NCBI GenBank assembly: GCA_018296165.2
Contig: JACKQL020000010.1
Span: 496,001 to 560,000, forward strand
Length of the DNA: 64,000 nucleotides
Direction: 5' to 3'
From: Termitomyces sp. T153
Lineage: Eukaryota > Basidiomycota > Agaricomycetes > Agaricales > Lyophyllaceae
Below are positions 4,039-38,004 of the stretch, piece by piece. The notes beneath the pieces are model-generated. The model saw only the letters and a program-made list of their open reading frames with translations. It made no database searches and was not told the DNA's origin. The position numbers and the translations under genes are program-made. Numbering within the stretch: position 1 is the first letter of the stretch; the number at the start of each line of letters is the position of its first letter.

Positions 4039-5100
4039 TGATAAGACCCAGTTGTCACTGAGCACCATTTTTGGCATTTTGGACTTAGTGGCAGCTGGCT
4101 AATTTTTGGCATAAGTCATGACACTCAGCACATGGGGCCCAGCCCAGGTCTGGATTGACATAGCCCTCACATGGGATCTTAGCAACCACAAGACTTATTG
4201 ATCACAAGGAATATCATATGGAGCCTGGACTTTGAGTCTAGGACAGTAAGGCCGAGACCTTTTCTAGTGATGATTATTAGCAACCCTGGTGACTCTTTGG
4301 CAACAAAACGGCTTTCTCTTACCATATATGGACATATTGACAGATGTGTATTGATATCGGACTCACTCTCTTTTTGGGTTTCACAATTATACACCACAGA
4401 GACTTTGCTTATAGTTTTTGCTTAGTTACAGACTGACACCTCATATGAACCATAAATACATTGACAGATGCCATTGCTAGTGGCAACTATTTGCTTACTT
4501 TCCCATACTATACTTTTAAATCATATCAATACTGCCTGTACATAGACACTTCATCATCAAATCAAATAAATCCCCCTTGAACCCAATCCATCTATCTCTA
4601 AGCTTACCAGCTTGAGATTTCACTTTGCCTCTATCTTCACTCTATTCCTTTACCCACCATTGACTTTGAATTAGTAACAAGTCTTATTAACTTTGACTTT
4701 GACCTAGTGTGGTGCCAACTATGAGTGCTCTTTGTGTTATCTCGACTTAGCAATGCTAGCAACTAGTTTATGTTTGTCCCCCTGATTCTGTCTCCCTATT
4801 ACTGTTTCCCCCTTTCTATTACATTCCCTCACTCCCCTACCACTGTCTAGAGTTTGCTCTTGTCTGAGTGACGTTCTCTGCCTTTACCCATTCCCCTTTC
4901 CGTCACTAGCAACTTAAGCTAGTGATAGCACCTCCTTTTAACTTCACCTTATAACACAGCACTCACTCTTGTTCTCTGGGACAGTTACTGACTTGCCCTC
5001 TACTATTAATTCCCTACTGCCAGCTACCCTATCTAGTGACTAGTGTTGGGTCCTCTTTTTAGATTTCCTGCATGGCACTAGGTGGCATAGGAGCACATCA
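4039..5100 (+). repeat. LTR1 subtype 1, 5' LTR of copy B
   Basis: TGATAAGACC...GAGCACATCA, 1062 bases. It is nearly identical, apart from CpG-type transitions, to the reverse complement of 26934-27998, and clearly less like the other LTR of its own element. A TATA-like site, weakened here, lies near 4524 before the CTGTACATAGAC segment shared by all LTR1 copies. Confidence 0.9.
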
Positions 5101-5103
5101 TTT

Positions 5104-5121
5104 TGGAGCCCACTATGAAGG
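5104..5121 (+). other. Primer-binding site of copy B
   Basis: TGGAGCCCACTATGAAGG starts three bases after the LTR end, the usual place for a tRNA primer site, and begins with TGG to pair with tRNA CCA. Copy C has the less decayed form at 36857-36876. I cannot name the tRNA. Confidence 0.7.
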
Positions 5122-6985
5122 CATTTGAAGTTAACCATTCCACCAAAAACCAGAGCTCAAGCAAAACATTGCTTAGAAAACCTTGATGAACTACCCCAGT
5201 CTTCCTTTTCTACCCCTCAGCACTATTTGCCAGCAACCTGCCCTTGACCTCTTGCCAACAAACTCAAAACCACTAGAAATCTTTGTAACATTAGCAAAAT
5301 CCTTGCCAATTTTCTAGGAGCCTTTATCAAAAGCTTCCTTGATGCACCCCTTTCATCTTTAATCCCTACTGACTCAATCTTCTTCCCAGAAGCCCAATCT
5401 ATCCCCTCCTTGCCAATTAACCCCCCTCCTCTGCCAATTCCAACAATTGCTAATATGAACAATGACCCCACTGCTCGGCGTGCTAGAATGCCACCACACA
5501 ATGATACTACTGTGCCTAAATGGGATGAGAGTCACCCTAGGGAGCTCCCCCAATACTTTAAAGAACTGGAATACCTTTTTGCTGACTGCAGCATTGCTGA
5601 CAACACTTAAAAGAAGGAGTACACATCTAGATACATCTCTTACAACACAGTGGAAACCTGGCTTGGCTTACCTGAATTTGGCAACAACATTATCATTGGC
5701 AACAATGCTCCCCAACCTTACACTTACCAAGAATGGAAGGCAGCAGTGCTTAGGTTGTACCCTGGTGCTGATGCTAGTGCTCATTATAATCTTGGCGACT
5801 TGGAATGACTTGTCAATCAGACTTTCAACAGCAGCTTAGTGACTTTTGGCAGGTTCTCGGACTACTACAGGGATTTCCAATGTATTGCCAGATGGTTGCT
5901 TGCTAATGGCAAACTCTATTATAATGAGGAATGTCACTTATTCTAACAAGGTATCCCTATGTCACTTTGGTCCAAAATTGTTCACTGTCTCAAAATCACT
6001 CTTCCTGACCACCATCCTGAGGACCCTTACAAAGTTGACCAAGTCTTTGAAGGCACTAAGTTGGTTTTGAAGGGAGCAGACACCTCTACAACCAAGACCA
6101 GCAATGGCACCAGTGGTATTTCTTTGCTGTTGCCAATTGCTAATGCACTGGTTCCCCCATCACCTATGCCTAAGCAGGAAACTTTGGAATTAGCAACAAC
6201 CACAGCAATTATCAGCACCTTAGAATGCTTGGAAGCCCTCTTAACCCATGGTAACACTCAACCTCACCAACACTTCACCAATAACACTTGTCACTTCTGT
6301 GGTGAAACCAGTCACACTATAGTCCAAGGCACTTGTATGAAATTGGAGCAAATGATTCAACAGGGTAAGATCCATTGCAATGCTGAAGGCAAGATCATTT
6401 TGCCGTCAGGTGCTATGATCCCAAATTATTTTGGCAAGCAACTATATATGGAACACATTGAGGAATGGCACAGGCTTAACCCAGACCAAATTGTTACTGG
6501 CAAACTCTCTTCCAATGTGAATCCAGACCCAGATCAAGCAGCTATGCAACAGTCACTAATTCATAAGGTAATGCAACAGGATGTTGCTATGGGCTGAGCG
6601 CTAAGCAAGGAAGAACAGATCAAGGCCTTAGAATGCAAACTCTTTGCACACAGGTGACCTGGCAAAAAGTTTGATGATGTACAAGTTCCCCACATGGCAT
6701 ATCAACCTGCAAACAATACCCCCAAGGTAACCCCCTCAACTAGTGACACTTTGGCAACTCCATCCCCTTCCAATTCTATGCCAGCTCCTGCTGCTAAGCC
6801 TGCAGACAAAGGCAAAGCACATGAATGTACTGTTGCTAACAAACAACCACTCATCACTAAGGTACCCATCGCTCAGCCTCCTATCCACCTGTTTTCTGGC
6901 ATCCCTGGTTGTTATATCCCTCCCGCTAATAGGGATTTCTCTGCCCCTGATAGGTCTAATGACAGTGCATATCAAACTATGTTAC
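5122..6985 (+). pseudogene. gag of copy B
   Basis: Gag packages the element RNA. One frame runs through most of this stretch, with in-frame stops near 5608, 5806 and 5945; copy C has sense codons at the first two. Order: proline-rich N-terminus, a capsid-like region with P-R-E-L-P-Q-Y-F-K-E-L-E-Y (5540-5590) and W-K-A-A-V-L-R-L-Y-P-G (5735-5765), then a zinc knuckle at 6289-6336 with spacing CX2CX4HX6C, two longer than the usual last gap. A Ser/Pro/Lys linker follows to about 6985, where the frame shifts into the protease part. Two further stops lie at 6596 and 6657. Confidence 0.8.
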
Positions 6986-7740
6986 AACATTGAGCAGTTC
7001 AAAGCAGTCTTTGAATGGGTTTTAAGCACCAAGGTTACAGTATCAGTTGGTGAACTTTGCTCAGTATCACAGGACATCTGGAATCAGTTTAGAACAGCAG
7101 TTACGCCCAAACAACTAGTAGGTGCTAGCGCTAATATGGTACAAGACCCCAGCAACATTTTTGAAGATATATTGCTGACTTTTGCTATTGAAGAACCCCA
7201 GTTTTTGCTAGGATTCAACATCAATACTGCTAATGGACTTACCTCAGATAAGGCACCTTTTGCATCTGTTGACCCTGTCAAAGCCTACATCGATTCACTA
7301 CCCCATGGAGAAGAGCCTGTGGTGCTCACTGTTGCTAAGGATTCTCAGTCACTTCATACCGTCATGATGCTGATTGACAACAAAGAGGAAGTGGAATGCA
7401 TTCATGACAGTGGCTCTCAGATTATCTCGATGTAAGCAGAAATTGCCAGTGACCTTGGACTATCCTACAATCCCAACATAATTTTAAACATGCAGAGCGC
7501 TAATGGCACCATGGACCAATTGCTAGAACTCACTCAAAACGTACCATGTACTATTGGCAACATTATGGTTTATCTCCAAATCCACGTTTTATGGTCTCCC
7601 ACCTACAACATTCTACTTGGATGCCCCTTTGATGTATTAACTCAAAGTATGGTCAGCATGCTTAGCAATGTCAAAACTACTATAACAATCACGGACCCCA
7701 ATACTGGCCAATGGTGCACTATCCCTACCTTTCCTCGCGG
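6986..7740 (+). pseudogene. Retropepsin region of copy B
   Basis: The leader contains V-F-E-W-V-L-S-T-K and is followed by the protease: H-D-S-G-S-Q near 7405-7422 (catalytic Asp-Ser-Gly), N-M-Q-S-A-N-G-T-M-D-Q at 7488-7520, then Y-N-I-L-L-G-C-P-F-D-V-L at 7605-7640 (the I-L-G flap partner). A TAA right after I-I-S-M (7433) interrupts it, and the same stop is present in copy C (34685). Positions 7053 onward lie in the tract nearly identical to C. Confidence 0.8.
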
Positions 7741-8563
7741 CAAATCCAAAAGGAACCACCACCAGAATGTTTGCTTTGAAACAGAAGCACCCCATTGCTT
7801 TCATTGCTGAAGGCATTGATGAAGAAGATAGCGACATAGCAATTGTTATCAGCTATGACCATTCAACTGGTCTAGTGACTTGTATAGCTTTTTCTGATTT
7901 GGACAAAGACATTATACTTACTAATTCTGACACACAGACCAACCCCATGCTAGCATATCTTTATGCTACTGCTAGTGACCTTTCTGATTTGTCCCTTCCA
8001 CCTCATTCTTATGTTGTTTCTACTGATACATCTAATCCCTTGATTCTTGGACAGACTTTACCCCTTGATATGAACAATACAGACACTACCCCCACCTATG
8101 TTAACATTCCATTCCCCACTCAACTTGTTGCTAACAAACCCCCTAAGCAATAAGGAGTCCAGGTAAAGAAGTACAAGCCCGTCACTATGAAAACCAAACC
8201 AGTCACCAGCCACATTAGTGAGGATTTTCAAATCGAGCACCAGATTATTGGTGATCCACTAGTGATGATCCCTCCACTCTATTCTAACCTGCCACCTTTT
8301 GTCCCAACAAAGCGATTCACTAGCAAACAACAAGCAAAACTCATCAAGGACCACAACATAGGCTTTCTCACTAGCAATGAAATTAAAGTGCTGGTTGACA
8401 TGGTCACCAAGCAGGAAAAGGCTTTTGCCTGGGAAGACTCTGAAAAAGGAAGCTTATGCCCCAACTTCTTCCTGCCAGTATGCATACTGACAATACCTCA
8501 CATACCTTGGGTTCAGCACAACCATCCCATACCCCCAGGGCTAGAAAAGGAAGTATGCAAGAT
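7053..8563 (+). repeat. Near-identical tract shared with copy C (33554-35068)
   Basis: Over about 1.5 kb B and C match almost base for base, sharing even a TAA stop and a frameshift near 7767. On either side they differ at roughly one residue in five. The left edge is near 7053. The right edge is exactly after AAGTATGCAAGAT at 8563, which is also where C jumps to unrelated downstream sequence. Confidence 0.85.
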
Positions 8564-9003
8564 TGTTGCTAACAAACCCCCTAAGTGAAGAGGAGTTCAA
8601 GTAAAGAAGAAGTACAAACCAGTCGCCATGAAAACCAAACCAGTCGCCAGCCACATTAGCGAGGATTTCTGAATCAAGTGCCAGATTATTGGCAATCTGC
8701 TAGCAACAATCCCTCAGCTCAATCCAAATCCACCACCTTTTGTCCTGACAAAGCGATTCACTAGTGAACAACAAGTGAAACTTGTTAAGGACCACAACAC
8801 AGGATTCCTCACTACCAGCAAAATCAATGTACTAGTTGACATGGTCACTAAGCAGGAGAAAGCTTTTGCTTGGGAAGATTCCAAATGAGGGAGTTTGCAC
8901 CCCAACTTTTTCCTGCCAGTACACATACTGACAATTCTGCATGTACCATGGGTCCAGCATAATTGCCCCATACCCCCAGGACTAGAAAAGGAAGTATGTG
9001 AGA
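7741..9003 (+). pseudogene. pol linker region upstream of RT, partly duplicated
   Basis: Acidic linker (E-G-I-D-E-E-D-S-D-I, from 7809) leads to the conserved pre-RT block: F-T-S-K-Q-Q-A-K-L, E-K-A-F-A-W-E-D, then I-P-P-G-L-E-K-E-V-C at 8530-8560. The block occurs twice, 8126-8563 and 8564-9003. The first copy is like C; the second is diverged and carries its own stops (8586, 8669, 8886). The linker frame is shifted relative to the protease frame at about 7767. Confidence 0.8.
8126..9003 (+). repeat. Tandem duplication in pol, two units of about 440 bases
   Basis: Units 8126-8563 and 8564-9003 both start TGTTGCTAACAAACCCCCTA and end in E-K-E-V-C. The units are diverged from each other, although unit 1 is nearly identical to C, so this is not a recent simple duplication: it joins two different parental copies. 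Confidence 0.85.
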
Positions 9004-9618
9004 TGATTCGTGACAATATAGCGCTGGTGTTTACAAACCTTCGAACTCCACTTATCACTCGCGATGGTTTTGTGTTCTCAAGAAGAATGGTAAGCTCAGA
9101 ATTGTGCACAGTCTTGAGCCACTAAACTATGTCATCATTCACCATTCTGGAGTACCACTCTTTCCAGACCATGTTGCAGAATCTTTTGCTGGACGCATCT
9201 GTGGTGCCACTCTCAACCTCTACATTGGCTATGATGAGCAACTTATCAACCCCGCTTCACATGACTTAACAACATTCCAGACTCTGTTTGGTGCTCTTTG
9301 CTTAGTAACCTTGCCAATGGGATGGACCAACTCTGTGCCTATTTTTCACAATGACATTACTTTCATTTTGCAGCCAGAAATCCCCCATAACATGCTCAGC
9401 TTTATTGATGATGTTGGCACTAAAGGACCCAAGGACTGGAAGATCATTAACAGTAAACCCACTAAGCATCCCGCTAATCCAAACATTTGCCTAGCACTAT
9501 AGGAGTTCTTTGAGCTTCTCAACAGGGTTCTCCAGCGAATGAAATATTGCGGTGGCACTTTTTCTGGTCACAAACTTGTTCTTTGTGCCCCGACTTTCAA
9601 GATTCTAGGTCATGTTTG
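9004..9618 (+). pseudogene. Reverse transcriptase, N-terminal part (copy B)
   Basis: Copies element RNA into DNA. Visible blocks: K-L-R-I-V-H-S-L-E-P-L-N (9090-9130), L-T-T-F-Q-T-L-F-G-A-L (9265-9300), L-P-M-G-W-T-N-S-V-P-I-F (9310-9345) and S-F-I-D-D-V at 9398-9415, the YxDD box with both Asp kept. It is the only RT in the window with that box intact. Stops and a frameshift near 9030-9100 break it. A solo LTR2 interrupts the gene at 9618; GTTTG (9614-9618) is repeated at 10791-10795. Confidence 0.85.
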
Positions 9619-10171
9619 TGTCAGGTTCCGCTGACCTCAGGGGCTCAGCTGCACTGGGCGAGTCCTTACTAGGCGGGTGTGATCCCCTTGCACTGGCGAC
9701 CAAACACTCAAAAGTGTTCTGGGCACTAATGGCTTGTGCGGATAGTCGGTGGGATGTGATCCGGACAGATCCAGGGAGGTCCGGAGAAGTTGGATTGCAA
9801 GGAAACGGGACAGGCTTGGCGGGGTTCAGGCAGAAGACCATATGGGGGATTCACAGAAGCAAAGGAGTAGGTGGCTGTGCAATCAATGGGAGCGGAGCCG
9901 GGGTTTGATGGGAGATCAATTGGAGTTGATGGAGTCTGGGACCGAGTGAAGAGCGAGGTTCAGACCTGGTGAAAGAGTGTTGGGGTTTGTAATCATAATC
10001 ATGGAGTTTGTGAGGTTGTTAAGGTTGATGAAGACTTGGGCACAACAGCCGGACAGAGTCACTGAGACAGCGTCAGACAAAATGGAATGGAGTCGATATG
10101 GAACAAGAGTAGATTCAGGTGGAGATACGAAACAATAACGAGAATGATAACAAAGTGGAGACAAGACAAGA

Positions 10172-10228
10172 CTGGGAGACTGAGATAAGACCGGGAGACT
10201 GAGATAAGACTGGGAGACTGAGATAAGA
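10172..10228. repeat. 19-base minisatellite in LTR2
   Basis: Three tandem units of CYGGGAGACTGAGATAAGA, near perfect. The solo LTR2 at 31238 has about two units (from 31790), so the array varies between copies. Confidence 0.9.
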
Positions 10229-10318
10229 AAACAAGACACAAAACATGAAAAGGAAACAATCAGACCATAGGTAATGTTAAGCAATATCAAGACTAGAGTA
10301 CGAAGAGCTACTCGACGT

Positions 10319-10326
10319 CTTATATA
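10319..10326 (-). promoter_or_regulatory. TATA box of LTR2
   Basis: TATATAAG on the sense strand, roughly 460 bases into the 1.17 kb LTR, the right kind of place for the U3/R border. In the two LTR2s of element D the LTR1 copies inserted directly at the two edges of this box. Confidence 0.6.
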
Positions 10327-10614
10327 CTGACTACCAGAGAACTTTGGGGTATGTTGGCTGCGGTGGCAGGGCTTGGCGGAGCTTGATGGAGTGGGCAGGT
10401 GTTGGTTGCAATCGAGGGTCAGGCCACGCTGATATGTTGATGGGATCATTTGGGAATGTGAGTCGCCCCAAGGTTGTTGTGATACTCTGGAATGGGTTGG
10501 AGGAACCAGGGTGTTGAGTTGATGATGGGTGGTGAAGATCGGGAACAATGGGGGTGGTTCTTGGGGTTCGGGAGATCCAGGGTAAGTGTCAGTGGCTGCG
10601 GGGAAGGCGTCGAA

Positions 10615-10685
10615 GTTGGCCAGGGGGCCATCGGAGTTAGCCGGGGAGGCATCGGAGTTAGCCGGGGTTGCGTCGGGGCTAACCA
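10615..10685 (-). repeat. Degenerate 21-base repeats in LTR2 U3
   Basis: GGCATCGGAGTTAGCCGGGG-like units repeat here and, more decayed, at 32225-32280, 41370-41420 and 55985-56055. They lie upstream of the TATA box on the sense strand, so they could be activator sites; that role is inference. Confidence 0.55.
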
Positions 10686-10795
10686 AGATAGGCGTGGGGC
10701 ATGGGCGGAAGTTTGGTGGAGCATCAGGGGTTTTGGGGAATTGGGGAGTTGCTGGACAATGTGCGGGGGTCCAGGGGGTGGGTCGTGACAGTTTG

Positions 10796-11455
10796 CACTC
10801 CTAGCAGTCAAATCCCTGATGAAAGTTGCTTAGCCCTAATTGAGCAGTGGGGCCCTTGCAAGTCGCTATTGGAAGTCCAAGCCTTTTTGGGCACAGTTGG
10901 GGTACTTAGGATTTTTGTCAAGAACTTTGCCCATCAAGCCAACAACCTAACAAAACTCACTCGCGTTGGTGTCCCTTTCGAGTTTGTCCCTGACCAGATA
11001 AATGCTCAACATGACCTCGTGAAAGCCTTACAAGACGCTAAGCCCCTAGTTCCTATAGACTATGAATTGCCTGACCCTGTCATCTTAGTGGTGGACACCT
11101 TGTACATAGCGGTCAGATATTACCTTTGCCAGTGCACTAGCAACAATCACAAGGAATGCCGCTACAACCGCTTTGGATTGATTACGCTAAACAACAGAGA
11201 AGCCAGATTCAGTCAGCCCAAGTTGGAACTCTATGGCCTTTATTGAGTGCTACAAGCTTTACGGATGTACCTCATTGGTGTTAGGAACCTGATCATCGAA
11301 GTTGATGCTTGCTACATTAAGAGCATGCTTCAGAACTCTGACATCCATCCTTCCGCTAGCATGAACCGCTGGATTATGGCAATTTTGATGTTTCACTTTG
11401 AGCTGGTCCATGTCAAGGGAACTTTCCATGGCCCTGATGGTCTTTCATGATGCCC
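10796..11455 (+). pseudogene. RT thumb and RNase H (copy B)
   Basis: After the solo LTR2 the RT resumes: L-E-V-Q-A-F-L-G-T-V-G-V-L-R-I-F at 10868-10915. The RNase H or connection region follows, with V-I-L-V-V-D-T (11080-11100), R-F-G-L-I-T-L-N-N-R-E-A-R-F-S-Q-P-K-L-E-L-Y-G (11170-11240), then L-I-I-E-V-D-A-C-Y-I and H-G-P-D-G-L-S. One TGA at 11244 and one at 11448 break the frame. Copy C lacks the homologous region up to A-I-L-M-F-H-F. Confidence 0.82.
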
Positions 11456-13042
11456 ACCACAGCCTGGTGACCCTCCAGCTGACAATAGCAACAACTCTGT
11501 TTATGAGGATTGGATAGATCACTTACATAGGTTCATTCACCAAGTTCAGCTACCACTGACACTACTTTGCCAAGTTTCCATGGCTTCCCATTGCATACCT
11601 CCTCTGGTCAAGTATGATTATTCACATCCTTTAGCAACTTTTGCCAGTGACACTGGCACTGCCCTCTGGTTAGCAATCAGCGACGATATTCAGCCTCTCC
11701 GAGATGATGGCACCACTACTTATAGTGATGTACCTTGCAGTGCCAAAGCTATCACCAGCAATGCTTGTGTACTTCTAGTTGAAAAATGGCTTCATGATCT
11801 CGTCAGACCTGAGGGCCTTACCAACAAAGACTATGCCACTTTTGTTCACTATGCCTCTATGTCCTTTGCTACTGGAGGCAAACTTTGGCGAAGAAGTTGA
11901 GATGGTGCTCATAAGCTGTTTGTGCCCATTGCTAGTTGCTTATGGGTCTTGAAAGCCACCCATGATGACTTGGGTCATAGAGGACTTTTTGCTACTCGCT
12001 CAGCCCTTTTAGAATGATTTTGGTGGCCTCAAGTTAGCGCTGATATGGTATGGTACCTTCAGACTTGCCACCTCTGCCAAATACACCAGACAACCAAAGT
12101 TCTCATCCCGCCAACTGCTGCTACACCAGCACCCTTGTTCAGCAAGATATATGTGGACACCATGTTCATGCCTCCCTCCAATAAGTTCAAATATATCATT
12201 CAAGGATATTGTTTGCTAACTCATTACCCCAAGTTTCACATGCTCTCCAGAGAGAACACCGAAGCTATTGCTAAGTGGCTATACAAGGACGTCATCTGTC
12301 ATTGGGGAGCGCTTAGTGAAATCATTACTGACAATGGACCTCCAATTCTAAAGGCAGAGTGAAGAAGTATAACTTGCACCACATCTGGATCTCTGGTTAC
12401 AATAAGTGTGCTAATGGAATAGTTGAGTGGCCCCATTTCAATGTTTGCCAAGCCCTCTTCAAAGCTGTTGACAGTGATCAGTCCAGGTGGAGTACTGCTA
12501 CTTACTCTGTATTTTGGTCAGAATGGGTTACCGTTTGCAAGCGAATGGGTTGCTCCCCCTACTTCGTGACAACCGGCACCCACCCTCTCTTGCCAGCTGA
12601 CATAGTAGAAGCGACATATTTGCAGCCACTGCCAAACTCGCTATTGTCAACAACAGACCTCATAGCCTGCCAAGTGATTGATCTTCAATGTCACCAAGAG
12701 GATCTCAACTGCCTTCACAGTCATGTTCTTAGCACTTGTTGCCTAGCAGCCATTCGCTTCAAAACAGAACATGCCACTATGATCTGCGATTACAACTTCA
12801 AAGCAGGTGACCTCGTACTGATGAGGAATACTAGAATCAAGGTAATGCATAACAAGAAGATGAAGCCTCATTACCTAGGCCCCCTAGTGGTAATCTCTTG
12901 CAACCGTGGAGGCACTTACATTATTTGTGAACTAGATGGCTCAGTACTACATTGCCCCATTGCTGCCTTTTGCTTAGTCCCCTATTTTGCTAGAGAACAC
13001 ATAACAGTGCCTAGCAACGCTTTCAACATTGACACCTCTTGA
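11456..13042 (+). pseudogene. Integrase (copy B)
   Basis: A linker (11580-11900) precedes the zinc-binding part, where G-H-R-G-L-F (11980-11997) is followed by C-H-L-C at 12065-12080. The core is D at Y-V-D-T-M-F-M-P (12150-12175), D at I-T-D-N-G-P-P (12325-12345) and E in N-G-I-V-E-W-P-H-F (12410-12440). A GPY/F-like end follows with M-K-P-H-Y-L-G-P-L-V-V at 12855-12890 and V-P-Y-F-A-R-E. Stops occur at 11898, 12015 and 12360. All three catalytic residues are kept, unlike copy C. The end at 13040 is a TGA; homology continues weakly to about 13145. Confidence 0.85.
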
Positions 13043-13582
13043 CTCAGAGAACTGGAGCAAACTGAACTCATCAACAATGACGATACAGGCAATGTCACCA
13101 GTGAAGAAGAAAACTACCTTTCGCTAAGCCTTAGCAACTTATCTTGACTCTGCTTTGTTTCTTATTGTTCCAATCCCTATTATCCAGAAAAACTATCAAG
13201 AATACCTTACAAAAACATTAAGTCCTTTCATTTTCGCTACTCTTTCATTGTTGTTACCTTGGTTAAGAAGCCTTTCACAGACACCTTACTTTACATTTTT
13301 TTTCTTGTTTTGATGCTGCACTTGGCCCTTCTGTCACCAGCACTCAGCACGCCTCTAGAGGTATTTTGCCATGATGATCTACTGAGCATTTGCCTTCATG
13401 CATTGCTAGCGTTAGATGACAGTCACTAGTGCATAACACCCCATTGATCTTGCTTTTCTCTGTTTTTCTCTCAAAGTTTCTGAACTATGGCCAAAATACC
13501 ATACATTTTTTTTGAGCCCCTTAAGGAGGCTAGTCTATGTCCGTGTTACTAATAAAAATATATGTACAGAAGGCAACTGTCA
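13043..13582. other. Tail-to-tail spacer between pol and the antisense gene (copy B)
   Basis: About 540 bases. The first 100 continue the acidic C-terminus seen in C. The rest is not coding and contains AATAAAAATATA at 13550-13561. The same spacer is found in C at 30183-30640, so it belongs to the element. It lies between two convergent genes and must hold both 3' ends. Confidence 0.5.
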
Positions 13583-14513
13583 CTAAGTGTTGAGGTCAGC
13601 ATCATCCTCAGGCACCTCCATCGCCTCCGCCTCCTCCCAATCTCCTTCCCCAATGTTGTTCTCCTCCTGCCAGGCCAGAAAGGCCTGACAGCTGTGCCAA
13701 TATCCTGCCAGAGTCGCCAATGTTTGCTTGGCAACAGTGTACCATGCCTGCGCCGCTAACAACTCCTCCCTGGCAGCCTCCAGCTCCCTCTGGAACCGCC
13801 ATTCCACTCCTGCCGCCCTCTCATCAAAATCTGCTAGCGATGCCGCTGACATTAGCGGCATCGGCCAACTGAGGTTCTTGCCCAACCACTCCAGCTTGTT
13901 GTTGCCAACCTGGTGCAAAGGCATGTTGCTCCAGGTCCCCTAGCAAAGCAGTTAGCGATCAAGGAAATAGCAAAAGAAACAAACTTACCTGTTGTCGGAC
14001 TTTGACCTCCTCAGCACTTTCCTCCTTGTCCTCCTCAGTAGCAACTGGGACAACTTTGAACTCCTCCTCGCCCTTGACCTCCATGTCACTAGCCTCCTGC
14101 TCCACCTCAGTGACCATTGCTAAGGGAGTTGTCTCCCTCATCTCCACGTCCCCCTCTCCCTCCTTGCTGGCGATCATTCAAGGCTGCTTAGCACTAGTGA
14201 CTAACGTGGGACTTGCTGCTCATTTCTGTGCCAGAGGCACATTGCCATCACTATTGTTGTTGCTGTTGTCCTTGTCGCTCTCCACCAGCTCCCTGCTCTT
14301 CACCTTAGCAACTCCACTGCCTCCAACCACCAACTCCTCCTGCAATGTCAGTAGGTTCAAGCTAGAATGCTTGACCTCGATAGGCTCCCCTCGCCTTGCT
14401 AACTCCCTCTGCCACTCCATGAAAGCCCTTGCATTCCTTACCAATGCTGCCTTTGTCACTATCTTCTTAGCAAACTTGCTGCCAGTGCTCCTTGACAACC
14501 GTCCACTATGCGA

Positions 14514-14609
14514 GCAGCTCTTCCTTGTGCTGTTGTAACAATAACAGGGCTGGACCCCTGTTGGGTACCAGCAGCCCTCTGGGTCATTATCGGCCCAGCA
14601 GTTGTTGCA
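14514..14609 (-). other. Six-cysteine cluster of the antisense protein (copy B)
   Basis: C-N-N-C-W-A-D-N-D-P-E-G-C-W-Y then P-C and K-S-C. Compared with C (29142-29237), the fifth Cys codon TGC has become TAC, so the metal site is lost here. Confidence 0.65.
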
Positions 14610-15273
14610 CTGAGAACTTGTTAGTGATGAAGATTGAAATAATCACTAAGTACTTACCGCTCCTTGCGTGTGCTTATATTCTTGTCACTTTGCTAGCAAC
14701 ACTGTCACCTTACCCTTGGCCTTCTCCAACTTCATGCCAGCTCCCAGGCCAGTGTCCACCACCATCAAGGCCTTTTGCCAATGAAGAAGGGTTGCCAAGC
14801 ACTTGTCAGTAAATGTTTCTTCAATTTGTTCCTGCAAGAGCAGTTAGCAACTGTTGCCAAGAGTTAGTAAAAAAGAAAAGGAAAAGACTCACCTCAATAT
14901 CCTTGTCCTCCTTGTCTCGTGCCTTTGCCTTCCCCTTCCCTTTGCTCCTTGGGGTTGTCGCCAATCTTGGCAACATTGCCAACCTCCTAGCAACACCGCC
15001 AGCCACTGCCTTGGGAGTCTAGGGGCCCACCTCTTGAATGTCCCCACAATTCACCACCTCCTTGCCCCCATAACCCTTGCTCCATCCCTCCCCCCTCGCC
15101 ACCGCTAATGCACCTACTGGGTGCTGGAAGAAGAACTGGTCATTTGGTGACAAGTCTTCAAAAAGCTGACATACCTTAGCAGTGTCGCTAGCACTAGCGA
15201 CTGCCAGGGCACTTACCATCATTCCCGCCGTAAGGTCATCCATTAGGAACTCTAAGGAGGGATCGACTGGTGC

Positions 15274-15323
15274 CTAGCAATTGCATTAGGAATGTTGCTA
15301 AGAGAAGAAAAGAAGAGACTTAT
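15274..15323 (-). other. Intron 1 of the antisense gene (copy B)
   Basis: 50 bases, ATAAGT...TTGCTAG. C has GTAAGT at the same place; the G-to-A change at the donor follows a C, so it fits CpG deamination. Other introns: 14832-14892, 14610-14657 and 13940-13988, all GT...AG. Confidence 0.75.
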
Positions 15324-15593
15324 GAAGTGGACATCAAATGGGCAAACTCATTCCTCCCCCTTGTACTGCTCATATAGTTGGTGACACTCCCTCTTGACAG
15401 TTGCCAACTCCGGCCACTCAACCCCACTCCCCATGGTCTTGAACCACTGCAGCTACATCTGAAAGATAGCAGTGACCGCCAAGCGAGGATCCTTTGCCAA
15501 GGAAGCACGAGCCACAGTGAGCAATTGGTCAACACGTTCCAGGAAGGTGTGGGCCATCATAATCTTTTTGAGTTGAGAGGCAAGATCAGACAT

Positions 15594-15757
15594 AGCGATA
15601 AGATCAAGATTGTAGTGGAGATTAGATGAGAAGAAAGTGGGGATGATGAAGTTCAAGCAATACTGCCAGCTGTTTTATTCAAATCTCTCTGGTGCATGGA
15701 CCAAGTGATCAAGCACATGACTTTGGAGTTGACTAAGGACAGTCAATATTTCAGTAT
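15594..15757. other. Spacer between antisense gene start and polypurine tract
   Basis: 164 bases with an upstream in-frame ATG at 15656 that would add 21 residues; C lacks an equivalent in frame, so I favour 15593. It would hold the antisense gene's leader; the promoter is either here or in the LTR read backwards. Confidence 0.4.
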
Positions 15758-15766
15758 GGGGGAGGA
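15758..15766 (+). other. Polypurine tract of copy B
   Basis: GGGGGAGGA directly before the 3' LTR (TGATGAGCC), the expected plus-strand primer. In C the equivalent is on the minus strand just outside 27998. Confidence 0.8.
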
Positions 15767-16879
15767 TGATGAGCCCCAGTTATTGCTGAGCACCATTTTT
15801 TTGGCATTTTGGACTTAGCGGCAGCTGACTACCTTGAATCCAATACAAGTCACAACACTCAGCACACGAGACCTAGCCGTGAAATTGGACTGAAGCATGA
15901 GACTTTAGTGACCACAAGACTTACTGATCATGAGAAACATCACATGGAGTCTGGAACTTGGGCCTAAATCATCAAGGCCTAGACCCTTCCTAGCAACAAT
16001 TATTAGTGACCCTAGCGACTCTAGCAACAAAATGGCATTCTCTTACTATATATGGACAAATTATCAGATGCATACCTTTATACTATCATTTCTTTTGCCA
16101 AGCTTACCAACATACTTGAACGGCATCTACACTTCAGGTATTGACATCGGACTTGTTTCTTTTTAGTTCCATTCACAATTAGGTGCTGCCAAGACTTTGC
16201 CTATGATTTTTCACTTAGTTACAGACTGACACCTTGTATGCACCATAAACACAGTGACAGACACCATTGCCAGTGGTGCCTATTTGTTTACTTTCCCATA
16301 CTATACTTTGAAACATATAAATACTGACTGTACATAGACACTAAAAGAAGGGAACAATTAGAGAACTGCTATCTTTGAGCTTACCAGCAAGAGATTTCAC
16401 TTTGCTTCTTTTGCTCTTCTATCACCTTTGACCCAGGCTTAGCAATAAGCCTTCTTGACTTCAACCTTGACTTAGTGTGGTGCCAACTGCAGGTGCCTAT
16501 TTTAGTTAATCCAACTTAGCAATGCTAGCGACTATGGCTAGCAACCAGTTTACGTTCATCCCTTGATTTTTAGTCTTCCTGTTACCGCCTTTCCTTGTCT
16601 CTACCCTATTCCCTCACTCTCCACTACCTCTGTTAAGAGGGTGCTTTGTCTTAGTGACATTACTGGTCTTTACCCTTTTTCTTTCCTTATTGTCACTAGC
16701 AAATTCCGCTAGCAATAGTGACTTCACTCCACAACACAACTTTTGCTCTAGTTCTCTGGGACGGTTACTGACTCGCCCTCAACTATTAACTTCCTACTGC
16801 CAGCTACCCTATCTAGTGACTAGTGTTAGGTCCTCTTTTTAGGTTTTCTGCATGACACTAGGCGGCATAGGGTACATCA
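15767..16879 (+). repeat. LTR1 subtype 2, 3' LTR of copy B
   Basis: TGATGAGCCCC...GGTACATCA, 1113 bases, closest to the reverse complement of 36880-38004, not to the 5' LTR of its own element. It carries TATAAATAC at 16315-16323 and a dense set of TAG-YRAY motifs (four at 15991-16028). Confidence 0.9.
16315..16323 (+). promoter_or_regulatory. TATA box of LTR1
   Basis: TATAAATAC followed by TGACTGTACATAGACAC, conserved in most LTR1 copies (C right LTR, 38410, 47855). Probable U3/R border and start of the element transcript. Confidence 0.6.
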
Positions 16880-17467
16880 TTGTAGAGTAGCTCCTCATAC
16901 TTTAGTCTTGATATTACATTAACTAGTTACCTGTGTCTTGTGTTTCTTTCTGTCTCCATTTCTGTCTTTAGTCTCAAATCTATTTCTTTTCTCTGTTCCA
17001 TCTCATCTCCATCTTGCCTCAACTGTCTCTATTTCCTTTGTTTTCCTAGGCCCCTTCCCCCAGATGTCAGTACCAACTCCACACATGCACTACAACCCCC
17101 AAACATTCTTACAACAACTCCAGACCTCACTCTTCACTTGGCCCAGGGAGCCATCAGTCTTGATTGATCCCCCCTCAAATCCCAGCTCCACTCCCTTTGT
17201 TTGCAATGCCTCCACTTACCCTGCATTCTATTTGTGCACCTACAAACTTGTTCCTAATGCCTGCCCAAGCATAATATTTAATATACTTGGTCTTAAACTT
17301 CCTGGACCACTCTGGACTTGCTTGGACTGCTTCCCTTGGCTCTTCTTTGCAAGTTCCTCTAGTCTGCACCACCTCTGGAGTGCTAGGTTATAAGCACAGG
17401 ACATTGTGTCTGCCTAGTAAGGACTTGCCCAGTGTAGCTGAGCCCCTATAGTCAGCAGAACCTAACA
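16880..17467 (+). repeat. LTR2, 3' half of the 5' LTR of D
   Basis: Begins at the TATA edge with TTGT (16880-16883), the decayed partner of ATGA at 38005-38008 (both from TCGT by CpG loss), and ends ...CTGACTATAGTCAGCAGAACCTAACA-type sequence at 17467. Matches 3434-4030 in reverse complement. Confidence 0.85.
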
Positions 17468-21201: not shown

Positions 21202-22310
21202 ATGATGCCTAACCTCTCTGAACAACCCTGCCACCACTCTGGACCCAGCTACAACCACTCCATTGATCCTGGAGACCTTGACATCAAAATCATTGGCACT
21301 GTTCCCTTTGCATGCATTTTACAAGATGGCACCCCTGCCTTCCAGCTGCAGATCACACCAGCCCTACCAGAAGAATACCTCCATGCAGAAGCTACTCTGC
21401 TGAAATGCACAGCCATGGAACAGATCCTATACAAAGTAGTTCCCCAGGAGTATCATAAATTTGCTGACATATTCTCTGAAGGCAAAAGAACTTCCTCCAC
21501 ATTGTTCCTATGATCACAAGATCAATCTCAAAGAAGGAACCTCCCCCCCAATTTGGAAAAATCTACAATATATCCAAGATTGAACTCTAGACCCTGAAAG
21601 ATCACTTTGACAACATGCTTGGCAAAGGCTCCATATACCTGTCAATCTCCACTGCCAGCACTCTGGTCCTATTCACTAAGAAAAAGGACAAATCACTCAG
21701 ACTTTGTATTGATTACTGGGGACTCAACAAAGTCACAAAAAAGAACTGGTATCCTCTCTCCTTGATTGGAAACCTTGTTAACCACCTCTGCAGTGCCAAG
21801 ATCTATACAAAAATAGACCTCTGCTCTGGCTACAACAATGTCTGGATTGTTCTGGGACATGAATGGAAAACCACATTTTGCACCTGCTATGGCCTCTTTG
21901 AGTACTTAGTAATGCCCTTCAGAATGACTAACTCCCCCACCACTTTCCAGTACTTTATAAACAACATCTTCCACAACATGAATGACATCTTCATTATTGT
22001 GTACCTGGATAACATTGCAATCTACTCAAATTTGCTGGAGGAGCATCTTGAGCATGTCTGCTGCATCCTGGAATGACTCTGGGAGTACCACCTTCATGTT
22101 AAACCTGAGAAATGCTCCTTCCATAAGACAGAGGTTGAATACCTTGGAGTTATCATCACTCCCAATGGCATATGCATGGATCCCACCAAGGTCAAAGCCA
22201 TCCTCAACTGGCCCCCACCACAGAACATCAAGGAGGTACAGTTGTTTCTGGGGTTTGCTAACTTTTATTGCTTATTCATTGACAACTACTTTGGGATCAC
22301 CAAACCCCTC
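21202..22310 (+). pseudogene. Reverse transcriptase of D
   Basis: Lead-in Y-H-K-F-A-D-I-F-S-E-G at 21450-21485. Fingers and palm: K-K-K-D-K-S-L-R-L-C-I-D-Y (21678-21717), L-N-K-V-T-K-K-N-W-Y-P-L, then K-I-D-L-C-S-G-Y-N-N-V (21810-21845), M-P-F-R-M-T-N-S-P-T-T-F-Q-Y-F (21912-21960). The active box Y-L-D-N-I (22002-22016) has lost its second Asp. The thumb is V-Q-L-F-L-G-F-A-N-F-Y near 22238-22272. Frameshifts at about 21510 and 22070. Confidence 0.88.
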
Positions 22311-26933: not shown

Positions 26934-27998
26934 TGATGTGCTCCTATGCTGCCTAGTGCCATGCAGAAAACCTAAAAAGAGGACCCAACACTAGTCACTA
27001 GACAGAGTAGCTGGCAGTAGAAAGTTAATAGTAGAGAGTGAGTCAGTAACTGTCTCAGAGAACAAGAGCAAGTGCTGTGTTATAAGGTGAAGTTAGAAGG
27101 AGGCACTATTGCTAGCTTAAGTTGCTAGTGACAAAAAGGGGAATGGGTAAAGGCAGAGAACATTGCTCAGACAAGAGCAAACTCTAAATGGTGGTAGGGG
27201 AGTGAGGAAATGTAATAGAAAGGAGAAAACAGTAATAGGGAGATGGAATCAGGGGGATGAACATGAACTAGTTGCTAGCATCACTAAGTTGAGACAACAC
27301 AAAGGGCACCCATAGTTGGCACCACACTAGGTCAAAGTCAAAGTTGATAAGACTTGTTACTAAGTCAAAGTCAATGGCAGGTAAAGAAATAGAGTGAAGA
27401 TAGAGGCAAAGTGAAATCTCAAGCTGGTAAGCTTAGAGATAGATGGATTGGGTTCGAGGGGGATCTATTTGATTTGATGATGGAGTGTCTATGTACAGGC
27501 AGTATTGATATGATTTAAAAGTATAGTATGGAAAAGTAAGCAAATAGTTGCCACTAGCAATGGCATCTGTCAATGTATTTATGGTTCATATGAGGTGTCA
27601 GTCTGTAACTAAGCAAAAACTATAAGCAAAGTCTCTGTAGTGTATAATTGTGAATAAATCCAAAAAAAGAGTGAGTCTGATGTCAATACACATCTGTCAA
27701 TATGTCCATATATGGTAAGAGAAAGCCGTTTTGTTGCCAAAGAGTTGCCAGGGTTGCTAATAATCATCACTAGAAAAGGTCTCAGCCTTACTGTCCTAGA
27801 CTCAAAGTCCAGGCTCCATGTGATATTCCTTGTGATCAATAAGTCTTGTGGTTGCTAAGATCCCATGTGAGGGCTATGTCAATCCAGACCTGGGCTGGGC
27901 CCTGCATGCTGAGTGTTGTGACTTATGCCAAAAATTAGCCAGCTGCCGCTAAGTCTGAAATGCCAAAAATAGTGCTCAGCAACAACTGGGTCTTATCA
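26934..27998 (-). repeat. LTR1 subtype 1, 3' LTR of copy C
   Basis: Reverse complement starts TGATAAGACCC and ends GGAGCACATCA; 1065 bases. Nearly identical to 4039-5100, the 5' LTR of B, differing mainly at CpG-derived positions. Confidence 0.9.
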
Positions 27999-28172
27999 TC
28001 CTCCCTTATACTGAAATCTTGACTGCCTTCAGTCAACCCCAAAGTCATGTGTTGGGTTGCTTGATCTGTGCACCCAGAAAGATTAGAATAAAAAGAGCTG
28101 GCAGTTTCACTTGAAGTTCATCATCCCTCTTTTCTCTCATTTTATCTTCACTTCAATCTGTCTCTTATTGCT

Positions 28173-30182
28173 ATGTCTGACCTTGCTTCTCAATTTGAAA
28201 AGATTGTTATGGCCCACGCTTTTCTTGATTGGGTCGACTGTCTGCTCTCTGTGGCCTGTGCATTGCTGGCAAAGGATCCTTGCTTGGCAGTTACTGCCAT
28301 CTTCCAGACCTGGCTTCAGTGGTTCAAGACTGCAGGGAGTGGGGTTGAGTGGCCAGAGTTGGCAAACATCGAGAGGGAGTGTTGCTAACTATATGAGCAG
28401 TACAAGGGAGAAGAATGGATTCACCCATTTGACTCACACTTTGTAAGTTCTTTCTTCTTTTCTTCCTCTTGGTGACAGTTCTAACAGAATCGCTAGGCTC
28501 CAGTTGATTCCTCCTTGGAGTTTTTGATAGATGACCTCATGGCAGGAATGACAGTAAGTGCCCCAGCAGTCACTAGCGCTAGCAACACTGCTAAGGTATG
28601 TCAGCTTTTTGAAGATTTATTGCCCAATGATCAGTTCTTCTTCCAGCACCCAGTAGGTGCATTAGTGGTGGCAAAGGGGGAGGAACAGAGCAAGGGCTGT
28701 GGGGGCAAGGAGAGGGAAAATCATGGGGACATTCAAGAGGAGGGCCCCTTGACTCCCAAGGCTGCAGCTAGCAGTGTTACTAGGGGTTTGGTGACAACTC
28801 TGAGGAGCAAAAGGAAGGGAAAGGGAAAGGGCAAGGCTCAGATGAAGATGACAATGATATTGAAGTAAGTCTTCTTCTTTTTGCTAATCCTTAGTGGCAA
28901 TCGCTAACTTTTCTTGCAGGAACAAATCAAAGAAACATTTTCCAACAAGTGCTTGGCAGCACATCTTTGCTGACAAAAGGCCTTGACTGTGGTGGATACT
29001 GGGTTGGGGGCTGGGGTGGTGCTGAAGAGGGCCAAAGGGAAGGTGACAGTGTCACTAGAGAAGCAACAAGAGTTCGAGCATATGCAGGGAGCAGTAAGCA
29101 CTTAGCAATGGTTTCTTTTGTAGTTGCTAACTTCTTCTTAGTGTGACAACTGCTGGGCTGACAATGACCCAGAGGGCTGCTGGTATCGAATGGGGGCCCA
29201 GCCCTGCTATCATTGCGACAGCACTGGGAAGAGCTGTTTGCACAGTGGACAATCATCAAGGAGCATGGGTGGCAAGTTTGCTAAGAAGATAGCAGCGAAG
29301 GCAGTATCAGTAAGGAATACAAGGGGTTTTGTGGAGTGACAGAGGGAGCTAGCGAGAAGAGGGGAGCCCATCAAGATCAAGCATTCTAGCTTGAACTTGC
29401 TGACATTGCAGGAGGCAGCCATTGGAGGTAGTGGGGTCACTATGGTGAAGAGCAATGAGAACAATGGTGATGACAGCAGCAACAACAACAGCAATGACAA
29501 TGTGCCTCTGATACAAAAATGACCAGCAAGTCCTGCTTCAGTCACTAGCACTAAGCAACCATGGATGGTTGCTAGCAAGGAGGGCAAGAAGGATGTGGAG
29601 ATGAGGGAGACAACTCCCTTAGTGATAGTCACTGAGATGGAGCAGGAAGTGAGTGATATGGAGGTCAAGAGTGAGGAGGAGTTTGAGGCTGCCCTGGTTG
29701 CCATCAAGGAGAACAAAGAGGAGGACAAAGGGGCCAAGAAGGTCAAAGTTTGATGACAAGTAAGTCTCACCTTTTGCTATCTTCTTGTTTGCTAATGACT
29801 TTGCTAGAGGACCTGGAGCAACACACCACTGTGGCAGGTTGGCAACAATGAACTGGAGTGGCTGGGCAAGGATCTGGCTTGGCCAACACCACTAATGCCA
29901 GCAGTGTCACTATTGGACTTTGATGAGAGAGTGGCAGGGATGGAATGACAGTTCCAGAGGGAGCTGAATGCAGTGAGAGAGTTGGTAGTGGTGAGGGCAT
30001 GGTATGCTGTTGCCAAGTGGGCATGGTATGCTGTTGCCAAGTAGACCTTGGCAGCATTGGCGGAATATTGGCATGACTGTCAGGCCTTTCTGGCCTGGTA
30101 GGAGAACAATGTTGGAGAGGGAGATTGTGAGGAGGAGGATTTGGTGGAAGTTCCTGATGACGATGCCAACCTCAACACCTAG
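28173..30182 (+). pseudogene. Antisense five-exon gene with six-cysteine cluster (copy C)
   Basis: Same gene as 13583-15593. ATG at 28173 (M-S-D-L-A-S-Q-F-E-K). Introns start GTAAGT at 28443, 28864 and 29091-29095 (GTAAGC) and again after 29750; they end in TAG or CAG. The full cysteine cluster is kept at 29142-29237. Decay: TAA in exon 1 (28384), a one-base shift at the end of exon 2, TGA in exon 3, TGAs in exon 4 (29338, 29519) and more in exon 5, plus a 21-base-scale duplication of a W-Y-A-V-A-K segment near 29999-30040. That B and C keep the same exon plan while differing widely shows it was a real gene of the family. Confidence 0.8.
29142..29237 (+). other. Six-cysteine cluster of the antisense protein (copy C)
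   Basis: Spacing CX2CX8CX8CX2CX6C, with D-P-E-G-C-W-Y in the middle and C-Y-H-C then K-S-C-L at the end. It opens exon 4 exactly. Fungal Zn2Cys6 factors usually have CX2CX6C first, so this is similar but not canonical. Confidence 0.7.
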
Positions 30183-30640
30183 CAACTGTCACCTCATAAA
30201 ATTTTTTAGACTTTTTTGTAGTATGGACACAGACTAGCCCCCTTAAGGGGACCCAAAATGTATAGTACTTCCAATGTTTTAGAAATTGAGAGAAAGCAAA
30301 GACAATCAAGATCAATGGGGTGGTATGCACTAGCAACTGTCACTTGACATTAGCAATGCTTGGAGGAAAATGCTCAATAAGTCATCATAGTGAAATACCT
30401 CTAGAGGTGTGCTGAATGCTAGTGACAGAGTGGCCAAGTGCAGCATCAAAAACAAGAGAATAGTAAAGTAGAGTGTCTGTGAAAGGCTTCTTAAACAAAG
30501 GTAATATGAAGAAAGAGTAGCAAGAACGAAAGGACTTAATATTTTTGTAAGGTATTTTTCACAGTTTTTCTAGATAGTAAGGACAAGAACAGTGAGAAAC
30601 TAGGCGGAATCAAGAAAAGTCACTAGGGCTTAGTGAAAGG
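30183..30640. other. Tail-to-tail spacer (copy C)
   Basis: Matches 13140-13582 of B. No coding seen. Contains the segment CCCCCTTAAGGGG near 30237, palindromic, also partly present in B (13515-13530). Confidence 0.45.
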
Positions 30641-31237
30641 TATGTTTTAGTTTTCTTCTTTACTGGCAGCATCACCAGTATCATTGTCATCTACAAGGTC
30701 AGTTTGTTTGAGTTCTCTAAATTGTGAGGTGTCAATGTCAAAAGTGTTGCTAGGCACTGCTATGTGTTCTCTAGCAAAGTAAGGAACCAGTTGAAAGGTG
30801 GCTATGGGGCAATGCAGTACTGAACCATCTAGTTTGCAAAGAATGTAAGTGCCCCCACAGTTACAAGAGATTACCACCAGTGGGCCTAGGTAATGAGGCT
30901 TCATTTTCTTGTTATGTGTCACCTCAATTCTAGTGTTCCTCATCAGTACAAGGTCACCAGTTTGGAAATTGTAATCACAGATTGTAGCAGCATGTTCTGC
31001 TTCAAAGCAAATGGTGGCTAGGCAACAAGCATTAAGGACATCACTGTGAAAGCAGTCAAGGTCCTCTTGGCAATGTTAAAGATCAATCGCTTGGTGGGCT
31101 ATGAGGTCAGTTGTTGACAATAGCAAGTTTGGTGGCAATTGCAAATATGTCACTTCCACTATGTCCGCTGGCAGGAGAGGGTGGGTGCCAGTTGTTGTAT
31201 AGTAAGGGGAGCAACCCATTTGCTTGTGAACCATAAC
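30641..31237 (-). pseudogene. Integrase C-terminal part (copy C)
   Basis: Minus strand: G-C-S-P-Y-Y-T-T-T-G-T-H-P-L-L-P-A-D-I-V-E (31220-31155), then L-V-L-M-R-N-T-R-I-E (30960-30925), M-K-P-H-Y-L-G-P-L-V-V (30905-30870) and V-P-Y-F-A-R-E. Ends with an acidic tail at 30647. Interrupted at 31237 by a solo LTR2; ATAAC is duplicated at 31233-31237 and 32387-32391. Confidence 0.82.
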
Positions 31238-36850: not shown

Positions 36851-36856
36851 TTTAAA

Positions 36857-36876: not shown

Positions 36877-36879
36877 AAA

Positions 36880-38004
36880 TGATGTACTCCTATGCTGCCT
36901 AGTGCCATGCAGGAAACCTAAAAAGAGGACCTAACACTAGTCACTAGATAGGGTAGCTGGCAGTAGGAAGTTAATAGTTGAGGGCAAGTCAGTAACCATC
37001 CCAGAGAACTAGAGCAAAAGTTGTGTTGTGGAGTGAAGTCGAAAGAAGTTGCTATTGCTAGCAGAAGTCACTAGTGATGATAAGTAAAGAAAAAGGGTAA
37101 AGACCAGTAATGTCACTAAGACAAAGCACCCTCTTAACAGAGGTAGTGGAGAGTGAGGGAATAGGGTAGAGACAGGGAAAGGCGGTAACAGGAAGACTAA
37201 AAATCAAGGGATGAACGTAAACTGGTTGCTAGCCATAGTCGCTAGCATCGCTAAGTTGGATTAACTAAAATAGGCACCTGCAGTTGGCACCACACTAAGT
37301 CAAGGTTGAAGTCAAGAAGGCTTATTGCTAAGCCTGGGTCAAAGGTGATAGAAGAGCAAAAGAAGCAAAGTGAAATCTCTTGCTGGTAAGCTCAAAGATA
37401 GCAGTTCTCTAATTGTTCCCTTCTTTTAGTGTCTATGTACAGTCAGTATTTATATGTTTCAAAATATAGTATGGGAAAGTAAACAAATAGGCACCACTGG
37501 CAATGGTGTCTGTCACTGTGTTTATGGTGCATACAAGGTGTCAGTCTGTAACTAAGTGAAAAATCATAGGCAAAGTCTTGGCAGCACCTAATTGCGAATG
37601 GAACCAAAAAGAAACAAGTCCGATGTCAATACCTGAAGCGTAGATGCCATTCAAGTATGTTGGTAAGCTCAGCAAAAGAAATGATAGTATAAAGGTATGT
37701 GTCTGATAATTTGTCCATATATAGTAAGAGAATGCCATTTTGTCACTAGAGTCACTAGAGTCACTAATAATTGTTGCTAGGGGAGGGTCTAGGCCTTGAT
37801 GATTTAGGCCCAAGTTCCAGACTCCACGTGATGTTTCTTGTGATCAGTAAGTCTTGTGATTGCTAAAGTCTTGTGCTTTGGTCCAATCCTTGGGCTAGGT
37901 CTCGTGTGCTGAGTGTTGTGACTTGTGTTGGATTCAAGGTAGTCAGCTGCCACTAAGTCCAAAATGCCAAAAAAATGGTGCTCAGCAATAACTGGGGCTC
38001 ATCA
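36880..38004 (-). repeat. LTR1 subtype 2, 5' LTR of copy C
   Basis: Reverse complement runs TGATGAGCCCC...GGAGTACATCA, 1125 bases, closest to 15767-16879 in B. Flanked by ATGA at 38005-38008. Confidence 0.9.

Follow-up and report, generated by a model that had tools for sequence, protein, structure and literature searches.

A spliced antisense gene under constraint and an element-wide TRGCGA word in a Ty3/gypsy retrotransposon family of Termitomyces

The window analysed here, a 64,000-nucleotide stretch of the Termitomyces sp. T153 genome, contains two copies of a multi-exon gene that a Ty3/gypsy family carries in antisense between its pol gene and its 3' LTR, and it raises the question of what such a gene does for the element that carries it. 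A sequence-only reading of the window had proposed a phase-0 gene running from 15593 to 13583 (copy B) and at 28173-30182 (copy C), and the gene is present at both places. It is real, far beyond chance. The genome (72 Mb, 307 contigs) holds at least 36 near-full-length matches, B included, each covering at least 1,912 of the 2,011 bases; 40 of 265 candidates were scored, hence this count is a lower bound.

The gene had been given five exons and four introns. All acceptors of these four introns and the donors of introns 2-4 are kept in 22 of 22 aligned copies, and the donor of intron 1 is GT in 11 of them and AT in the other 11. It is GT in all 15 young copies, a set chosen for near-identity and not a random sample. 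The gene nevertheless has six exons and not five, because a further intron of 51 nt (15174-15124), lying within what had been taken as exon 2, holds an in-frame stop in every one of the 15 young copies and is removed in 11 of 14 aligned deposited gene models; the stop in the young copies rules out the five-exon plan. The 51-nt stretch is retained in 16 of 153 relative proteins. The exons of copy B measure 270, 99, 231, 174, 621 and 357 nt from first to sixth, and the parts of the gene are as follows.

15324..15593, minus strand: exon 1, with the ATG at 15593 and, in copy B, an AT donor
15175..15273, minus strand: exon 2, 99 nt
15124..15174, minus strand: intron overlooked by the sequence-only reading, 51 nt, GTATGT...CAG
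14893..15123, minus strand: exon 3
14658..14831, minus strand: exon 4
13989..14609, minus strand: exon 5, with the cysteine cluster at its start (14609-14514); the fifth cysteine is Tyr in B
13583..13939, minus strand: exon 6, with a predicted long C-terminal helix at about 13852-13658, a position transferred from relative P0002 by residue counting
28173..30182, plus strand: gene copy C, more decayed than B

The gene was also said to face the 3' LTR, which is true of its start and not of its direction: 174 bp separate the ATG from the 3' LTR, and the gene points the other way, toward pol. The possibility that this span encodes a protein in the sense direction was considered and rejected, as the element-sense frames of two copies (L039 and L029) have 18-32 stops and their longest open run is 267 aa. 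A short palindrome around CCCCTTAAGGGG sits at window positions 13514-13530, about 55 bp past the antisense stop codon. It is conserved in five aligned copies, is imperfect in B, and could be an end mark of the antisense or the pol transcript.

B and C are old, decayed copies. B had been described as about 600 codons without an indel; the lengths hold, and the frame is closed by six in-frame stops, with the first donor lost and the fifth cysteine replaced by Tyr. C was described as keeping the plan of B, and the antisense multi-exon gene is indeed there, with one exon length that is not divisible by three and nine stops when the exons are read one by one. The proposed cysteine spacing, CX2CX8CX8CX2CX6C, is kept in C and in the intact relatives and is broken in B at the residue that has become Tyr. 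Among the old copies (L009-L028), many codons that read TGA in one copy read CAA in another. This alternation can be read as CGA lost at its CpG on either strand, and such CpG decay suggests CpG methylation of silenced copies.

The young copies present a different state. Fourteen of the 15 are fully open from start to stop, and the remaining one (L037) has one stop. Their splice sites are canonical. Five are 99.9-100% identical to one another and nine 97.3-99.9%, and the LTR pairs of four young elements, compared over part of their length, are 98.6-99.8% identical. The dN/dS check proposed with the sequence-only reading was made on these copies, leaving out comparisons with L037 for its internal stop. 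The comparison of two intact young subfamilies gives dN 0.059 and dS 0.395 by NG86 (580 codons), and 0.061 and 0.362 by YN00, so that dN/dS is 0.15-0.17 and not near 1. Of 258 intron sites, 52 differ between the same two subfamilies. Comparisons inside one subfamily give 0.27-0.41 (NG86), a range based on few changes. The claim of a spliced antisense gene in the element is thus supported, as is selection on it. In the pol gene of the same subfamily pair, dN is 0.034 and dS 0.624 (1215 codons), and the constraint on pol is therefore stronger than that on the antisense gene.

A second line of evidence comes from transversions in 21 copies, all but C. Those common to two or more copies number 12, 9 and 36 at codon positions 1, 2 and 3, with 601 sites for each position, and singleton transversions are more even over the three positions (26, 24 and 40). 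The concentration of the shared changes at position 3 indicates that the source copies were selected for the protein. By these substitution measures, the antisense gene is under purifying selection.

Pol lies opposite and downstream of the gene in all 20 flanks examined, and an LTR lies directly upstream of the gene in 19 of them, with none at L024. An opposite-strand antisense gene is listed beside 55 of the 60 best pol matches and beside 74 of 123 overall; the list of gene-pol pairs is incomplete, with 42 of 117 gene places having no listed pol, though the flanks show pol for some of these. The pol of the window is 74-84% identical to the open pol of another copy (L052), which matches Integrase_H2C2 and RT_RNaseH in Pfam; six window ORFs searched directly against Pfam gave zero matches. 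A putative primer site starting TGG follows the 5' LTR, as judged by eye. On these features the host element is classed as a Ty3/gypsy LTR retrotransposon. The gene itself, being antisense to pol, placed between pol and the 3' LTR, kept and constrained, fits the aORF-3R class. The parts of the two elements in the window, here called X and Y, are listed below.

7869..13117, plus strand: decayed pol beside B, interrupted at about 9737-10790 and ending just downstream of the antisense gene
34251-30653, minus strand: pol beside C, the counterpart of 7869..13117
15758..15766, plus strand: polypurine tract adjoining the 3' LTR, found by eye
15767..16887, plus strand: 3' LTR of element Y, beside gene B
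36880..38004, minus strand: 5' LTR of element Y, 92-97% identical in blocks and 95% overall to 15767-16887
4039..5108, plus strand: 5' LTR of element X
26934..27998, minus strand: 3' LTR of element X, beside gene C, 93-94% identical in blocks to 4039-5108

The elements around B and C, as they are now arranged, are recombinants of two elements through an inversion of about 25 kb (window 4039-38004). The LTR pairs that the present layout suggests are only about 73% identical. Target-site duplications, found by eye, also agree with the swapped LTR pairs, being ACTG/ACTG for one and TCAT/TTGT for the other, and the latter two could derive from TCGT through CpG decay. The inverted repeats at 6982-8563 and 33554-35138 are 99% identical and are likely the crossover point of the inversion.

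Several other features of these elements may be recorded. A stretch of about 1.1 kb splits pol in both elements (at about 9737-10790 and 31250-32382), at different pol sites; the two inserts are 80-90% identical and in direct orientation despite the inverted elements, and are probably a separate mobile element that inserted twice. An LTR elsewhere in the genome (G000:C59:2263-3375) is 99% identical to the LTR at 15767-16887, which is above the identity of that element's own second LTR (95%), and it possibly reflects a duplicated segment or another haplotype. A 300-nt direct duplication lies inside the element at 8166-8465 and 8607-8906, its halves 79% identical and 441 nt apart. Remains of other retroelements include an RVT_1 reverse transcriptase match at 21591-22073 on the plus strand and an Exo_endo_phos_2-like stretch, just under the cut-off, at 52531-53499 on the minus strand. 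The 2-kb bins around these two are poor in the motif described below, with 3-11 decay-tolerant sites.

The protein of intact copies has about 581 residues. The cysteine cluster is found in 33 of 153 relative proteins, many of which are partial models. One exon of a copy elsewhere in the genome agrees at 100% with a protein deposited for Termitomyces sp. T112, and a distant family in Termitomyces sp. T159_Od127, about 30% identical, has the same cluster spacing in 10 of 32 proteins. There are no relatives from outside Termitomyces among the matches listed (57 in one search, 32 in another, and the best 120 of 154 in a third); the searches that gave 57 and 154 matches scored only the 7997 and 7996 candidates with the most shared words. 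No Pfam family scores above the cut-off for the antisense protein and its relatives, no DNA-binding domain is recognised in them, and no structure in the PDB was matched by sequence. DUF3716 matches weakly in 3 of 27 members, with a best E of 0.052. The AlphaFold2 model has a mean pLDDT of 44 and leaves the cysteine cluster without resolved structure; it is confident only for the C-terminal helix (residues 492-556 of P0002, pLDDT of about 85-94), which is likely to form a coiled coil. The protein also has basic and acidic stretches besides the cluster and the helix. A bipartite nuclear-signal-like pattern is present in only 6 of 153 proteins, and for this reason a nuclear location is a guess.

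The cysteine cluster invites comparison with the Zn2Cys6 (Gal4-type) domain, whose consensus is CX2CX6CX5-12CX2CX6-8C with basic residues in the first loop. Both have six cysteines with two CX2C groups. They differ in the first loop, which in the antisense protein is X8 and acidic instead of X6. At E values up to 1, the 27 members searched hit 14 Pfam families, and Zn_clus is not one of them; the PROSITE-type pattern of the domain is found in 0 of 153 proteins. Together with the spacing, this rules out membership in the Zn2Cys6 family. A search of the open-licence literature found no paper on Zn2Cys6 in LTR elements.

A gene spliced from the antisense strand beside a 3' LTR has a counterpart in HTLV-1, in which HBZ is a spliced antisense gene expressed from the 3' LTR and encodes a nuclear bZIP regulator. 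The likeness is one of layout in a reverse-transcribing element; HBZ differs in being a bZIP protein of a retrovirus. The antisense promoter of HTLV sits inside the 3' LTR, according to excerpts of a published account (PMC7264820). Plants also offer parallels: Retand, Grande, RIRE2 and PvRetro13 have extra ORFs that sit in antisense between pol and the 3' LTR, as described in the accessible parts of two papers (PMC11963269, PMC7264820). Retand with TRP28, Grande with GENE23, and RIRE2 resemble the Termitomyces element in that the gene is antisense, lies between pol and the 3' LTR and, in the same excerpts, is kept in most copies. A nuclear or DNA-binding role is suggested there for the plant aORF-3R genes (PMC11963269, PMC7264820), and in the portion available of one of these papers the antisense accessory genes of LTR retrotransposons are said to have no known function (PMC7264820). 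Retand has a TRP28 domain, whereas the Termitomyces protein matches no Pfam family. The Termitomyces element has six spliced exons and an element-wide motif.

The sequence-only reading knew of no described fungal case, and this does not hold, since Boty of Botrytis cinerea has the antisense gene brtn. Boty of Botrytis and Sclerotinia is described, in passages of the same two papers, as having an antisense additional ORF in the interval between pol and the 3' LTR (PMC11963269, PMC7264820), and brtn is named as the antisense gene of Boty in the title of Zhao et al. 2011, as it stands in the reference list of PMC8365987. Boty and brtn are thus like the present case in being a fungal LTR element with an extra antisense gene at this position, going by part of one account (PMC7264820). 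Boty differs in belonging to an ascomycete, and the two are likened by published description. Among the open-licence papers listed, and going by titles and the starts of abstracts, no basidiomycete antisense gene of this kind is reported. The element fits a known antisense-gene layout, and its unexpected part is the element-wide TRGCGA.

One young element, assembled as pieces totalling 9,079 bases of which about 250 are counted twice, has 61 TAGCGA and 38 TGGCGA sites, or 99 on both strands. The other single-base variants of TAGCGA occur 0-17 times each, and the sites prefer Y before and C after the word. An order-2 model expects 5.8 sites in the gene piece, 9.3 in pol and 1.6 in the 3' LTR piece, against 39, 42 and 12 observed. 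The second subfamily is similar, with 31 sites in the gene (4.6 expected) and 34 in pol (8.5 expected). Within the gene piece the density per kb is 30.9 in introns (8 sites in 259 nt), 14.9 in exons and 11.3 upstream, and there are 0 sites in the 151 nt examined past the antisense stop codon. LTR-bearing pieces, flanking DNA included, have 1.8-6.0 sites per kb and are poorer than the gene and pol. The motif uses both strands of the gene about equally and every codon frame; in pol it occurs in five of the six combinations of strand and frame. Occurrence on both strands and in all codon frames points to a role at the level of DNA, and the near-equal use of the strands rules out one at the level of RNA.

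The enrichment appears specific to this family. Six stretches around other integrase matches have 5 sites in 6,506 bases, and this control is weaker because the six belong to only two gypsy-like families (L058, L061, L062 and L063, 90-99% identical, and L059 and L060, 95%), which share 44-51% identity with one another and are about 19-26% identical to the pol of this element. Three tubulin loci have 0.3-0.6 sites per kb. In 20 old copies, the motif and two CpG-decayed forms of it reach 12.9 per kb (9.5-15.2), as against 2.9 per kb for four permuted control words. The same is seen in the window, where ten element segments have 9.7-19.9 decay-tolerant sites per kb, compared to 3.6 and 3.8 in the two non-element stretches tested and 2.3-3.8 for the permuted control words.

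4039..16887, both strands: TRGCGA-rich stretch, including CpG-decayed forms; 26934-38004 likewise

Genome-wide, the pair TAGCGAC..TAGCGAC occurs 171 times and its reversed form 11 times, and 83 of 100 listed motif pairs match known family sequence, the shortest strings possibly by chance. Of 35 sites in the gene piece and 41 in pol, 26 in each set are identical between the young subfamilies, against a background identity of CpG-containing 6-mers of 0.516 and 0.441 (p 0.005 and 0.010). The effect is modest and comes from two subfamilies, and it suggests that motif sites change a little less than the sequence around them.

The VANC system of Arabidopsis VANDAL elements likewise combines a TE gene with a short word that has built up in the same element. 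VANC21 binds YAGTATTAY sites amassed in the TE that encodes it, and methylation is lost as a consequence, as given in excerpts of two papers (PMC5735166, PMC10398659), and its sites are placed in non-coding regions and tandem repeats in the available part of one of them (PMC5735166). Like that system, the Termitomyces element has a TE-borne gene under selection and an accumulated motif that is sparse in the two other TE families compared. They differ in that VANDAL is a plant DNA transposon with its motif, so far as those excerpts go, in non-coding and tandem sequence, whereas here an LTR retrotransposon has dispersed sites, dense in coding sequence and found in exons, pol, introns and LTR. 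Among the open-licence papers listed, again going by titles and abstract beginnings, no accumulated self-motif in an LTR retrotransposon is reported.

It is possible, at a probability we put at roughly 0.4, that the antisense protein binds TRGCGA along the element and keeps its copies active or unmethylated, or tunes their transcription. Introns would survive in a retrotransposon because the sense genomic RNA holds just their complements, and their being kept through the antisense orientation would point to transcription of the gene from the opposite strand, from a promoter in or beside the 3' LTR. The protein may then act in the nucleus as an oligomer, which would bind TRGCGA sites along the element DNA, and binding may keep copies active or unmethylated in the manner of VANC or adjust their transcription. 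A word present on both strands, in coding and non-coding sequence, is the trace one would expect of an element's own sequence-specific DNA-binding protein. The antisense protein is presumably the best candidate for a reader of the motif because its gene is the sole known accessory gene of the element as analysed here, gag apart. Co-occurrence in one element is the sole tie between protein and motif. Counting against the proposal are the low-confidence AlphaFold2 model, a protein in which no DNA-binding domain is recognised, the small number of proteins with a nuclear-signal-like pattern, sites that unlike those of VANC21 are scattered and dense in coding sequence, the lower density of LTR-bearing pieces, the modest conservation of sites and a TE control of two families. 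The earlier proposal of a DNA-binding regulator of the element or its silencing thus gains circumstantial backing from the element-wide TRGCGA, but its cysteine cluster is not a recognised Zn2Cys6 domain.

Two alternatives concern the reader of the motif. In the stronger of them, which we consider somewhat less likely than the main reading, the protein resembles HTLV HBZ or maize Grande GENE23 in being an accessory factor whose action is confined to the LTR or the integration complex, and the motif is bound by something else, for example a host protein or the integrase. Known genes of this layout do encode nuclear or predicted DNA-binding proteins and the gene starts 174 bp from the LTR, but the motif is densest in the gene, its introns and pol, which an LTR factor leaves unexplained. 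It is less probable still that the motif is unrelated to the element protein and represents a host factor site, a drift in lineage composition or a mutation that generates CGA. The word contains a CpG, the CpG observed/expected ratio of pol is high (1.25-1.29), and only two other TE families are in the comparison, all of which would suit such an origin. Against this, single-base variants in which the CpG is intact number 4-17 each (TGGCGA, with 38, excepted) and TAGCGA 61, the permuted control words are not enriched, the order-2 model accounts for 5.8 of the 39 gene-piece sites, and the conservation of sites exceeds background.

The other two alternatives deny the protein a role. That the antisense RNA and not the protein matters, pairing with genomic RNA to feed silencing or copy-number control, is very improbable: antisense transcripts might yield dsRNA, as part of one paper suggests (PMC7264820), but such an RNA has no need for a dN/dS of 0.15-0.17, for open frames in 14 of the 15 picked young copies or for conserved splice sites. 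A host gene fragment acquired by chance and without a role for the element, to which zero Pfam matches would be no obstacle, is hardly credible given at least 36 copies, two subfamilies under purifying selection, pol in all 20 flanks examined, a distant family in another Termitomyces that shares the cysteine spacing at about 30% identity, and a predicted dN/dS near 1 in young copies where the opposite is observed.

Binding of TRGCGA by the antisense protein can also be put in a more specific form, which is more tentative than the general one. The protein would serve retrotransposon self-recognition, binding a CpG-containing word selected into nearly every part of the element, coding or not, and thereby marking or protecting the copies of its family, notably against CpG methylation; the arrangement would be VANC-like and would have evolved independently in a retrotransposon and in a fungus. 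Sequence-specific escape from silencing by a TE protein and its own motif has been worked out for plant VANDAL, in the accessible parts of two reports (PMC5735166, PMC10398659). DNA transposons of Agaricomycetes carry TET/JBP enzymes, according to an excerpt of a further paper (PMC12730594), which makes methylation escape by TE genes a live idea for mushrooms. Here an antisense accessory gene under clear constraint is paired with a candidate target, a six-base word present about 100 times in 9 kb. The question of what such genes do is thereby reduced to one binding assay, and for the escape of TEs from silencing the Termitomyces family would be relevant as a candidate case in a fungal retrotransposon.
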